Source: Naasia sp. (GTDB lineage: Bacteria > Actinomycetota > Actinomycetes > Actinomycetales > Microbacteriaceae). Taken from it: a DNA stretch of 58,676 nt. The translations under genes and the position numbers were made by a program. Below the pieces are notes generated by a model. That model did no database searches. It saw only the letters and a program-made list of their open reading frames with translations, and had not been told where the DNA came from. Shown piece by piece: positions 20,447 to 58,200 of this stretch (position 1 is the first letter of the stretch; each line of letters starts with the position of its first letter). The stretch lies in the NCBI GenBank assembly GCA_025463675.1, contig JAODAX010000092.1:1-58676 (forward strand), read 5' to 3'.

Positions 20447-20543
20447 CCGTCGAGCGCGGTACGTGCACCGCTCCGCGCGGTGCGAGGCGCCGAGCGCGGT
20501 GGGTGCACAGCCCGCGCTCGGTGCCTCGCACCGCGCTCGACGG
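20447..20543. repeat. 97-bp nested inverted repeat with internal direct repeats
   Basis: Outer arms CCGTCGAGCGCGGT (20447-20460) and ACCGCGCTCGACGG (20530-20543) are exact 14-bp complements. Inner arms 20477-20499 and 20512-20534 are 23-bp complements with one G-T wobble and a 12-bp loop. The right outer and inner arms share five bases, so two alternative pairings compete. CGAGCGCGGT-nn-GTGCAC also occurs twice directly, 40 bp apart (20451, 20491). It follows the ycnI stop by 5 bp and could act as a terminator, but it is far larger than a simple one. Confidence 0.8.
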
Positions 20544-41553: not shown

Positions 41554-41611
41554 CGCAACGTTCCCGCAGTTTCGCAACGGCGCGCGGTTGCGAGACTGCG
41601 GGAGGGTTGCG
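41554..41611. repeat. 58-bp palindromic element, copy A
   Basis: 25-nt arms around an 8-nt centre (GGCGCGCG). Left arm begins CGCAACGTTCCCGC; right arm ends GGGTTGCG. Arms differ at three positions. Arm position 17 is T on both sides, where copies B and C have A on both sides, a paired change. It lies between the terminator above and the MFS stop, ending 2 bp short of that stop. Confidence 0.88.
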
Positions 41612-52574: not shown

Positions 52575-52632
52575 CGCAACGTTCCCGCAGAATCGCAACC
52601 GCACACCGTTGCGATTCCGCGGCGACGTTGCG
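52575..52632. repeat. 58-bp palindromic element, copy B
   Basis: 25-nt arms with centre CGCACACC; left arm begins CGCAACGTTCCCGC, right arm ends GACGTTGCG. Arms differ at three positions. It lies in the ~260-bp gap between the divergent CNNM gene and the DUF559-like gene, 87 bp before the latter's GTG. Confidence 0.88.
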
Positions 52633-52719
52633 TCCTCCCCCGGCATAGTGAATCCGCCCCGCTCCCCCGAACTCGAACAGTGCCCACAGCGTCCCTCGCA
52701 ACCGGCGGATAGTCCCCGC

Positions 52720-53628
52720 GTGAGCATCCCCGAGACGACGACCAACGCTCCCCTCCTGTCGGCTCGCGACTGGGAGCGGCGAGGCGAGGACCCCCGCTGG
52801 CTGCGAGACCAGGAGCGCCGTGGCGCCCTCGTGCGCCTGCGGCGCGGCGTCTACGTGGCGTCCGAGACGTGGGCGGCTGCCGGCACAGAGGATCGAGCGC
52901 TCCTGCATCTCCGTGCGTACGCGACGACCGCCCAGACGCCGCCCACCTTCAGCCATCAATCCGCCGCTCTCCTGCACGGTCTGCCGCTGCTGAGGTTCGA
53001 GCCCACAGAGGTTCACATCGCCGACCGCACCGGGTCGGGTGGGCGCAGCGGAAGCGGTGTCCGCCGGCATTTCGGGCCTTCCCGGAGCAGTCACGAGGTC
53101 GGCGGCCTCTACGCAACCTCCCTGGAACGCACACTGATCGACCTCGCCGAGTCGACGCCGTTCCGGGACGCCGTGGTCGCCGTGGACGCCGGGTTGCAGC
53201 GTGTGGACCTCGCCGACGTGCGTGCGCTCGCCGCGCGTAAGGCGTGCCGCGGCTGGCGGCGGGTCCAACGGGTCCTCGACTTCGCGTCGCCCCTCGCCGA
53301 GTCTCCCGGAGAGTCCCTCAGCCGGGTCATCATGCATGAGCTCGGCCTCCCGACCCCGGTGCTCCAGCAGGATTTCCGCGATCGGCGGGGCCTCATCGGC
53401 CGGGCGGACTTCTGGTGGCCGGACGCCCGACTGATCGGCGAGTTCGACGGCCGCGTCAAGTACTCCGGGCACTTCACCGGCAGCCCCGAGGACGTGCTCT
53501 GGAGAGAGAAGCTGCGGGAGGACCGGCTCCGAGCGAGCGGAACCCGTCTCGTGCGCTGGGTGTGGGCCGATCTGGCGCGGCCGGAACGGCTTCTCGCGCT
53601 GTTGTCCGCAGCTGGGCTACCCCGATGA
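52720..53628 (+). CDS. AbiEi-N winged-helix plus DUF559 (PD-(D/E)XK-like) nuclease domain protein
   Basis: 302 aa. N-terminal part (~15-100) resembles the AbiEi antitoxin winged helix (DWERRGEDPRWLRDQ, LRRGVYVAS, FSHQSAALLHGLPLL). The C-terminal ~100 residues fit the Vsr/DUF559-type nuclease fold: GRADFWWPD, EFDGRVKYS as the E-x-K core, and WREKLREDRLRASG followed by RWVWADL. So it could bind and cut DNA; no toxin partner is adjacent. Bracketed by palindromic elements B and C, with C starting 2 bp after its stop. GATAGT lies 6 nt before GTG 52720 and there is no good ribosome site, fitting leaderless expression. Confidence 0.8.
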   Translation: MSIPETTTNAPLLSARDWERRGEDPRWLRDQERRGALVRLRRGVYVASETWAAAGTEDRALLHLRAYATTAQTPPTFSHQSAALLHGLPLLRFEPTEVHIADRTGSGGRSGSGVRRHFGPSRSSHEVGGLYATSLERTLIDLAESTPFRDAVVAVDAGLQRVDLADVRALAARKACRGWRRVQRVLDFASPLAESPGESLSRVIMHELGLPTPVLQQDFRDRRGLIGRADFWWPDARLIGEFDGRVKYSGHFTGSPEDVLWREKLREDRLRASGTRLVRWVWADLARPERLLALLSAAGLPR

Positions 53629-53630
53629 AG

Positions 53631-53688
53631 CGCAACGTTCCCGCGGAATCGCAACGGTGCGCGGTTGCGATTCTGCGGGAACGTTGCG
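53631..53688. repeat. 58-bp palindromic element, copy C
   Basis: The most perfect copy: 25-nt arms with a single G-T wobble (position 15) around centre GGTGCGCG. It fills the gap between two converging genes: 2 bp after the DUF559-like gene stop and 2 bp before the guaB1 stop. In an RNA from either strand it would form a very stable hairpin. Confidence 0.9.
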
Positions 53689-55231: not shown

Positions 55232-58200
55232 GTGTCGAGTCAGTTGACCGGAACGGACGAAGGGGCGGGCGCCGAATTCGGCGCCAATGAATGGCTCGTC
55301 GATGAGCTGTATGAGCGCTTCCGCAAGGACCGCAACTCCGTGGACGAGTCGTGGTGGCCGGTCCTCGAGACGTACCACCCGGTTGAGACCCCCGACTTGA
55401 ACGGGGACGGGTCCATCCAGCCCCCGGGTGCGCCATCGGCCCCGCCCGCAGCCCCTTCGGGGCCGCCTGCGGCTCCCTCGGCACCGGAGACGCCGTCGAC
55501 GCCCGCGCCGACCCCCGCCGAACCGAATCCGCCCGCCCCCACCGAGCCGCTCGCGCCGACGCCGAGCGAGCCGAGCCCGGCCCCCGCACGGGAACAGTCC
55601 GCGCCCGTCCAGCAGCAGAGCGCCGTGGCGGCCCGCACCACGTCGGTCGCGCCCCGCGCCCAGCCGATCCCCGCAGAGGCACCCACCGGCGGCGGGGCGC
55701 GCTCCGACCAGGCGACCGAGGACGACGTCACCACCACCCTGCGCGGGATGGCGAAGACGCTCTCCGTCAACATGGACGCGAGCCTGACGATCCCGACGGC
55801 GACCAGCGTGCGGACCATCCCCGCGAAGCTGATGATCGACAACCGGATCGTCGTCAACAACCACCTCAAGCGCACGCGCGGCGGGAAGATCTCCTTCACC
55901 CACCTCATCGGCTGGGCGATCGTGCAGGTGCTCAAGGACTTCCCGAGCCAGAACGTGCACTACGCGGAGCTCGACGGCAAGCCGAGCGTCGTCCAGCCGG
56001 CGCACGTCGGCCTCGGCATCGCGATCGACATCCCGAAGCCGGACGGCACCCGCGCGCTCCTGGTGCCGAGCATCAAGCGTGCCGACACGATGGACTTCAG
56101 CGAGTTCGTCGCCGCCTACGAGGCGCTCGTGCGCAAGGCCCGCGCCAACAAGCTGGAGGCGGGCGACTTCGCCGGCACCACGATCTCCCTCACCAACCCG
56201 GGCGGCATCGGCACCGTGCACAGCGTGCCCCGCCTGATGAAGGGCCAGGGCGCCATCATCGGTGCCGGCGCGCTGGAGTACCCGGCCGAGTTCCAGGGCT
56301 CGAGCGAGACCACCCTGGTCGACCTCGGCATCGGCAAGACGATCACCTTGACCTCCACCTACGACCACCGCGTCATCCAGGGCGCCGGGTCGGGCGAGTT
56401 CCTGAAGCTCGTGCACGAGCGCCTGATCGGCAAGCAGGACTTCTACGACCAGATTTTCGCGGCCCTGCGGATCCCGTACTCGCCGATCCGCTGGAACCCC
56501 GACATCCACGTCGACCTGTCCGACATGGTCAGCAAGACGGCTCGGGTGCAGGAGCTGATCAACGTCTACCGGGTCCGCGGCCACCTGATGGCCGATGTCG
56601 ACCCGCTCGAGTACCGCCAGCGCACCCACCCGGATCTCGAGATCGAGAGTCACGGACTCACGTTCTGGGACCTCGACCGCGAGTTCGTGATCGGCGGCTT
56701 CGGCGGCAAGCGCACGGCGAAGCTGCGCGACGTGCTCGGCATCCTGCGCGACTCGTACTGCCGCACGGTCGGCCTCGAGTACATGCACATCCAGGTGCCC
56801 GAGCAGCGCAAGTGGATCCAGGACAAGGTCGAGCGCCCGTACGTCAAGCCGACGCACGACGAGCAGATGCGCATCCTCAGCAAGCTCAACGAGGCCGAGG
56901 CCTTCGAGACCTTCCTGCAGACGAAGTACGTCGGCCAGAAGCGGTTCAGCCTGGAGGGCAGCGAGTCACTGATCTCGCTGCTCGACCGGGTGATCGAGAG
57001 CGCAGCGGAGGACGGCCTCAGCGAGGTCGGCATCGGCATGGCGCACCGCGGCCGCCTCAACGTGCTGACGAACATCGCGGGGAAGACCTACGGGCAGATC
57101 TTCCGCGAGTTCGAGGGCACGCAGGATCCGCGCACGGTCCAGGGCTCCGGCGACGTGAAGTACCACCTCGGCACCGAGGGCACCTACCAGGGCTCCGACG
57201 GCTCGACCATCCCGGTGTACCTGGCGGCGAACCCGTCGCACCTGGAAGCCGTCAACCCGGTGCTCGAAGGCATCATCCGCGCGAAGCAGGACCGCCACCC
57301 GGTAGGCAGCTTCACCGTGCTCCCCGTGCTCATCCACGGCGACGCCGCGATGGCCGGCCAGGGCGTGGTGCTGGAGACCCTGCAGCTTTCCCAGCTGCGC
57401 GGCTATCGCACCGGCGGCACCATCCACATCGTGGTGAACAACCAGGTGGGCTTCACCACCCCGCCGGCGGAAAGCCGCACGTCGGTGTACTCCACCGACG
57501 TCGCGAAGACCATCCAGTCGCCGATCCTGCATGTGAACGGCGACGACCCGGAGGCCGTTGCGCGCGTCGCGGAGCTGGCGTACGAGTTCCGCCAGACGTT
57601 CCACAAGGACGTCGTCATCGACCTCGTCTGCTACCGCCGTCGCGGCCACAACGAGGGCGACGACCCGTCGATGACGCAGCCGCTGATGTACAACCTCATC
57701 GAGGCCAAGCGCAGCGTGCGCAAGCTCTACACCGAGGCGCTCGTCGGCCGCGGCGACATCACGCAGGAGGAGTACGACCGGGCGCACCGCGACTTCCAGG
57801 ACCGCCTGGAGCGGGCGTTCGCGGAGACGCACGCCGCGCAGACCTCATCGACGCCGGTTGCGCCGGACGCCGCGAGCGACCTCGAGCAGCCCGAATCGCA
57901 GCGCGGGGACCGCCCCGACGGGGAGCCGGAGTCGACCGCGGTGAGCGAGTCGGTGATCAGCACGATCGGCTCGGCGCACGAGAACCGCCCCCAGGGCTTC
58001 ACCGTGCACCCGAAGCTGGAGGCGCTGCTGAAGAAGCGCGCCGACATGAGCCGCAACGGCGGCGTCGACTGGGCGTACGGCGAGTTGCTCGCGCTCGGTT
58101 CTCTCTTGATGGAGGGCACCCCGGTGCGGATGGCCGGCCAGGATTCGCGCCGCGGCACGTTTGTGCAGCGGCACGCGGTGCTGCACGACCGGGAGAACGG

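Follow-up and report, generated by a model that had tools for sequence, protein, structure and literature searches.

What is a nuclease gene doing between two copies of a long palindrome whose other copies are scattered between the genes of the same genome? Dispersed bacterial palindromes have, to our knowledge, one well-known enzyme partner, the HUH transposase RAYT, and we know of no source for the other families. A REPtron consists of a RAYT gene (TnpA-REP, an HUH Y1 transposase) bracketed by REP palindromes; RAYT/REP families are lineage-specific, and the RAYT gene mostly stays in place. The locus considered here lies in a window of 58,676 nucleotides, which is the whole stretch of Naasia DNA that was analyzed, and the original prediction for it was a REPtron-like unit with a nuclease in place of the transposase. 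The gene, its palindromes and related copies in the same genome are as follows:

52575..52632, minus strand: palindrome copy B, which precedes the nuclease gene and lies in the gap separating it from a divergent CNNM/CorC gene
52720..53628, plus strand: nuclease gene, encoding a 302-aa protein with a predicted AbiEi-like two-domain part (about residues 8-190) and a predicted Vsr/I-Bth0305I-like domain (about 193-302)
53631..53688, plus strand: palindrome copy C, with 2 bp between it and the nuclease stop codon and likewise 2 bp between it and the end of a convergent IMPDH-family gene
41554..41611, plus strand: palindrome copy A, a dispersed copy flanked by two convergent genes, one for a LuxR-type response regulator and one for an MFS protein
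20475..20539, minus strand: dispersed copy of the C78-family palindrome, a different family, which brackets a paralogue of the nuclease gene on this genome's contig C78
L007:1-62: further dispersed copy of the C78-family palindrome, same genome
13175-13211 of the window: hairpin with 17-bp arms and a 3-nt loop, perhaps an ordinary terminator

The nuclease reading frame runs from a GTG start at 52720 to 53628, which puts copy C just 2 bp downstream of its stop codon; the bracketing that had been claimed for B and C is confirmed by the coordinates. Both palindromes (58 bp) have 25-bp arms and an 8-nt loop, with three arm mismatches in B and one in C by hairpin score; stretched to 63 bp they are inverted copies with 94% complementarity, and a dispersed copy on contig C11 matches C at all 63 positions. 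The 58-mer of this family has the layout CGCAAC-N13-CGCAAC-N8-GTTGCG-N13-GTTGCG, and its consensus is predicted to form a strong hairpin (-50.2 kcal/mol). Neighbors of the nuclease gene belong to the CNNM/CorC and IMPDH families, and the large downstream gene at 55232 is presumably OGDH-like. Genes for the window map, the intergenic hairpin densities, the neighbor-gene control and the dispersed-copy positions were taken from a codon-usage caller.

An AlphaFold2 model of the protein, built on a 26-sequence alignment (mean pLDDT 90.5), resembles two separate kinds of protein. Residues 8-190 match the AbiEi antitoxin 6y8q (Z 9.5, rmsd 5.7 over 169 residues) and residues 195-302 the catalytic domain of the homing endonuclease I-Bth0305I (3r3p; Z 8.9, rmsd 2.6 over 94 residues), and the C-terminal domain also matches 3hrl (Z 8.3). 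Further matches, to Rv2827c (1zel; residues 9-209, Z 7.3) and to the mismatch nuclease Vsr (1cw0; residues 193-301, Z 7.6), have Z below 8 and may reflect a common arrangement, as may a weak likeness of the middle domain (residues 58-193) to the nucleotidyltransferase toxin MenT1 (8an5; Z 6.9, rmsd 3.3 over 133). Among the VIA-align structure matches listed, coverage falls mainly on the C-terminal part, and families beyond those listed may match as well; a sequence search of solved structures with the window protein returned chance hits only. Five residues of the C-terminal domain, E198, D230, E241, D243 and K247, are invariant in 26/26 aligned homologues and are kept in 48, 49, 49, 49 and 48, respectively, of 49 full-length homologues from a mostly Cryobacterium set. 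We take these to be putative catalytic residues, the role that such positions presumably have in the PD-(D/E)XK superfamily. Mean pairwise identity is lowest in the winged-helix part (29%, with 33% in the middle and 45% in the nuclease), as would be expected if the site that the winged helix reads changes.

Profile searches bear out half of the label "AbiEi-N/DUF559" that the gene had been given. PADLOC AbiEi models match the window protein at 1.8e-10, in agreement with the fold, and Pfam AbiEi_4 matches it weakly (E 0.0032, below the model cut-off) and is found in 16/26 homologues. The DUF559 part does not stand: PF04480 has no match to the window protein at E up to 1, none in the window's own genome, and one among the 26 homologues. 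No NCBIfam family was found for any of the 26. The nuclease assignment rests on the predicted structure, which fits an AbiEi-type DNA-binding part fused to a Vsr/I-Bth0305I-like (PD-(D/E)XK) nuclease, as had been proposed. Vsr and I-Bth0305I share the C-terminal fold of the model; the protein differs from them in its fusion to an AbiEi-like part and in the setting of its gene, which is palindrome-bracketed and lies between two other genes, not inside an intron or intein of a host gene.

The palindrome-bracketed nuclease gene of the window is one case of a recurrent arrangement across several actinobacterial groups. A wider named set, consisting of the best 80 of 570 loci found with protein alignment, was searched for hairpins (score at least 14), using ORF ends that were assigned mechanically and are sometimes too long (e.g. 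L163). Hairpin density is 1.64 per kb up to 200 bp from these genes (52 in 31.7 kb) and 0.055 per kb at more than 500 bp (28 in 513 kb); with only intergenic DNA counted, it is 1.79 vs 0.35 per kb. A hairpin lies within 350 bp of 49/80 target genes (upstream in 29, downstream in 33, on both sides in 13), as opposed to 17/165 control genes (Fisher p 1.6e-16).

A second test made no use of hairpins and scored ungapped repeats common to the upstream and downstream flanks of a gene (score at least 16), with the same mechanical ORF ends. Such a repeat is present at 50 of 77 loci, these being the best 80 of 570 less three with short flanks, and is seen in 0/231 cross-genus pairings and at 1/136 neighboring genes in the same loci. 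Among Naasia homologues it was found at 32/34 (from 43 Naasia matches), some of them paralogues with an identity of about 30%; two of the 34, G001:C3a and C4, agree in scores and flank repeat and look like a duplication of a single locus. A set from 13 Cryobacterium and 3 other genomes gave 36/53, the 53 loci deriving from 57 rows, of which two pairs are halves of one locus and two rows, a broken homologue, were left out. At the threshold used, no shared repeat was seen at 27/77 and 17/53 loci of the wider and the mostly Cryobacterium sets. When the upstream flank of one gene is paired with the downstream flank of a paralogue in the same genome, repeats are shared in 3/124 Naasia pairings, two of the three coming from what looks like one duplicated locus, and in 2/152 mostly Cryobacterium pairings; the repeat of a gene is therefore matched by its own other side, not by its paralogues. 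The window's genome illustrates this, since all three homologues found in it are bracketed, each by a different palindrome family. Random scatter of palindromes with no enrichment near nuclease genes, the outcome that would have spoken against the original prediction, is rejected by the hairpin enrichment, the flank sharing and the mismatch controls.

The window family is also widely dispersed. Its genome (2.08 Mb, 68.8% complete) holds 31 places with about 29 full or nearly full copies and a half copy on contig C73, the ends of contigs C91 and C49 being counted once because they look like one copy; given the completeness, this number is a minimum. The layout itself occurs 28 times, vs 0 for the pattern read backwards, and the palindrome count is far above chance. 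Positions were analyzed for 28 of the 29 copies, the other being truncated at a contig end. No copy overlaps a called gene; 23 are no more than 50 bp from a gene 3' end, against an expected fraction of 0.23, and for 7 the distance is at most 3 bp (expected 0.025). Of 25 gaps that could be classified, 10 are convergent. Several copies in this genome are found at contig ends, but an assembly or MAG artefact is set aside by the presence of the arrangement on contigs of 3.39 Mb and 3.20 Mb.

BLAST finds the exact 58-mer in 2/60 relatives, and 48/60 have the protein; palindromes diverge fast, and a search with the window 58-mer alone would have missed the pattern. With free spacers, the layout is present in 8/398 genomes of the taxonomic family, with 28, 23, 42 and 20 copies in four of nine genomes of the window genus, 27, 21 and 5 in three genomes of one other genus, and a single match in one further genome; the reversed pattern has a single match in each of two of the 398. 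The motif is thus retained as the spacers vary from species to species.

Four more close pairs of the window family, about 550-1130 bp apart, bracket genes that have no relation to the nuclease; rough arithmetic gives about half a pair expected at random:

L007:480-1083
L010:5008-5913
L011:5029-5850
L006:5255-6438

Local hopping or carried genes are possible explanations. The four pairs were searched for nuclease remnants, as might be left by degraded master genes, and none was found at a meaningful score.

Dispersed copies beyond the gene's own pair were found for 8 of 9 families tested, and together with the gene-specific bracketing of homologues this strongly supports the functional linkage of gene and palindrome that had been proposed. 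Within 260 kb of the window's genome, the C78 family has two copies beyond its own pair, one of them at 20475-20539 of the window, and the C47 family, which brackets another paralogue, has none. Three families of Naasia G005 (a, b and d), each derived from one of its own homologues, have 4, 3 and 3 copies in 400 kb that were sampled at roughly even steps and not picked for palindromes, and three foreign families have no match in the same DNA. Cryobacterium family 1 is present in 12/13 Cryobacterium genomes and in 0/3 others, and family 2 in 6/16 of the same genomes; exact copy numbers are not stated for these two families because match counts take in both strands. Family 2 occurs in 4/4 genomes with the gene at 73% identity or more and in 0/7 Cryobacterium genomes having only more distant homologues. 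The remaining two carriers are G424, where no gene was found, and G421, which has a 56-residue match (L304, G421:C38:18227-18394; 75% identity) to the family-2 nuclease; perhaps the gene was lost in G421 and its palindromes were left behind. For family 3, 220 kb of G432 hold six copies, the G424 and G423 stretches a single copy each, and those of G421 and G422 none.

The spacer of an abundant palindrome family in G006 is carried by none of the homologues examined, and no long stretch is common to this family and the flanks of six G006 homologues; its X motif (defined below) resembles that beside one of them. The motif TGCCACTT is present in the palindromes of the distant Naasia paralogues L310, L315 and L317 (about 30% identity); hairpins of this kind turn up again in the G005 sample, and the type may represent another old branch of the system.

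Although hairpin sequences differ, the palindromes share an internal design. Across 55 hairpins with arms of at least 22 bp, bases 19 positions apart within one arm match at 0.645, whereas other offsets tested give 0.22-0.36, highest at offset 20; the score is an average over the 55 hairpins, not per family, and a 19-bp direct repeat inside the arm is thus a shared design on average. A short motif, X, stands twice in each arm, 19 bp apart, which gives four copies of X per palindrome. Within the window family most X columns are invariant, and conservation is found mainly in these columns. Covariation in this family is modest by overall score (0.102 vs 0.081; 6/500 shuffles), and neither pairs changed on both sides (93/500 shuffles) nor pair types (147/500) stand out.

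Movement was examined by aligning 7-140 kb stretches of Cryobacterium genomes, most of which are 80-93% identical. G432 has four filled family-3 sites, of which one is filled in G424 as well and one in G423 as well. Three of the four are empty in both G421 and G422, and the fourth is empty in G422, the sole genome compared there. To explain the site that is filled in G432 and G423 but empty in both G421 and G422, loss or repeated gain must be assumed. At one family-1 site, three species share the copy and a fourth has unrelated sequence; at another, two species share it and a third is unclear. For one family-3 site the other genome carries unrelated sequence, and for four dispersed copies there is no syntenic match. 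Of the empty sites, the clearest is flanked by two convergent genes. At the cleanest filled/empty site, where the flanks have diverged, inspection by eye showed no target-site duplication, and no excision product was recognized in the aligned stretches. These comparisons support movement of the dispersed palindromes, which are present in some species and absent from others, with gain and loss not fully separated.

The nuclease gene behaves differently. The family-1 gene and its flanking pair occupy one syntenic place in 5/5 Cryobacterium genomes. At the window locus, the CorC, nuclease and IMPDH-family genes are adjacent in G000, G004, G005, G001 and the more distant G029, and in G006 and G007 the CorC gene and the large downstream gene, OGDH-like by our assumption, are kept beside the nuclease gene. 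The gene is thus old at its locus, unlike a composite transposon, and looks vertically inherited, not mobile. Of the mobility originally envisaged, the part concerning palindromes is supported, within the limits just given, and the part concerning a unit of gene plus palindromes is not supported.

A comparison with REPtrons shows both likeness and difference. Shared features are a gene between palindromes that are also dispersed between other genes, lineage-specific families and a gene that mostly stays in place. The enzyme differs, being a predicted PD-(D/E)XK nuclease on an AbiEi-like part, with a predicted fold unrelated to that of Y1 transposases. In line with the original prediction, no RAYT partner was found: Y1_Tnp (PF01797) was found in 0/25 genomes, with the control positive in 5/14. 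REPs are defined, in passages of PMC3733652, as palindromes of 20-40 bp with a GTAG (or CGTC) tag at one end; the window palindrome is longer, has no such tag at the ends of its 58-bp family consensus, and carries a 19-bp direct repeat in each arm. The lack of Y1 in the 25 genomes, the untagged window family and the unrelated predicted fold together place the system outside REPtrons by membership. Among described classes that have no known enzyme, the CGTC-tagged REPs come nearest, being likewise dispersed palindromes without a RAYT partner; in the same passages they appear to be without a dedicated transposase and are reported from five phyla, Actinobacteria not among these (PMC3733652), and they differ from the present palindromes in tag, shape and phyla. 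No published account of a nuclease gene with dispersed palindromes was found among the matches listed in the open-access literature, and an earlier description is possible.

We conclude that the locus is probably part of a REPtron-like palindrome-spreading system that uses an unrelated, restriction-type nuclease, with the nuclease gene as the resident source of a dispersed family. In such a system the AbiEi-type winged helix would read motif X, and several protomers may assemble on one palindrome, the 19-bp spacing predicting two for each arm. The Vsr-like domain would then nick the palindrome, probably in its extruded hairpin or cruciform form, and copying into a new intergenic site could follow by repair or strand transfer. 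The nuclease gene itself would rarely move, like RAYT genes, and X would change as the DNA-binding domain diverges, giving rise to lineage-specific families.

The alternative that survives best arises from the AbiE type IV toxin-antitoxin systems, which share the N-terminal two-domain fold of the model (AbiEi 6y8q, Rv2827c 1zel). Known members bind inverted repeats: as described in passages of PMC7319586, AbiEi binds two 23-bp inverted repeats upstream of its own gene and Rv2827c four repeats upstream of its own. The window protein could accordingly be an autoregulatory AbiEi-type regulator with the palindromes as operators, the dispersed copies being the regulatory sites of a regulon, or else passive duplicates that owe their spread to unrelated processes; the nuclease domain would then have some other role. 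The location of palindrome B in the promoter gap of the nuclease gene and the mostly invariant X columns of its family agree with this; operators, however, would not lead one to expect a copy on each side of shared-repeat loci, hairpins as frequent downstream as upstream among the best 80 of 570 loci, the concentration of own-genome copies just behind gene 3' ends, sites that differ between species or putative active-site residues invariant in all 26 aligned homologues. We regard a regulator with its regulon as unlikely.

Still less probable is a role in defence, in which an AbiE-like or restriction-like nuclease would be directed by palindromes, for example as self-marking sites or through sensing of cruciforms in invading DNA. 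The PADLOC AbiEi matches and the Vsr-like fold of the model invite this reading, but no AbiEii nucleotidyltransferase toxin gene stands beside the nuclease gene among the window neighbors inspected, which are the CNNM/CorC and IMPDH genes, and the gene keeps a conserved locus. The protein departs from AbiE systems further in its extra nuclease domain and in having palindromes on both sides and dispersed, and a defence role by itself would leave gene-specific dispersed copies, as well as filled and empty sites, unaccounted for.

Terminators or 3'-end RNA hairpins shared by chance would account for the many own-genome copies close behind stop codons, the convergent gaps and the strong predicted hairpin; they leave unexplained the gene-specific pairing, the upstream copies and the 19-bp internal repeat across unrelated sequences, and are very doubtful as a general explanation. 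That the palindromes are REP or MITE elements mobilized in trans by RAYT or another transposase is hardly credible, despite a REP-like intergenic position and copy number, given their pairing with AbiEi-nuclease genes, the untagged ends of the window-family consensus and the lack of PF01797, the one transposase family searched, from the 25 genomes.

Taken as a palindrome-spreading system, the arrangement of a gene between dispersed palindromes suggests an unrecognized way for short DNA repeats to spread. We lean towards an undescribed and enzymatically independent counterpart of REP/RAYT, common in Actinomycetes, in which each AbiEi-PD-(D/E)XK nuclease maintains and spreads its own family of four-motif palindromes with a 19-bp spacing within the arm, and in which one genome may hold several gene-palindrome pairs. 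If this is true, a second, unrelated enzyme class would have its own dispersed palindromes, and this lifestyle would have arisen more than once. Many natural pairs of enzyme and site would become available for studying joint change of a DNA-binding domain and its site. A large group of uncharacterized actinobacterial genes would also gain a function, and the lineage-specific intergenic palindromes of these bacteria would be explained.
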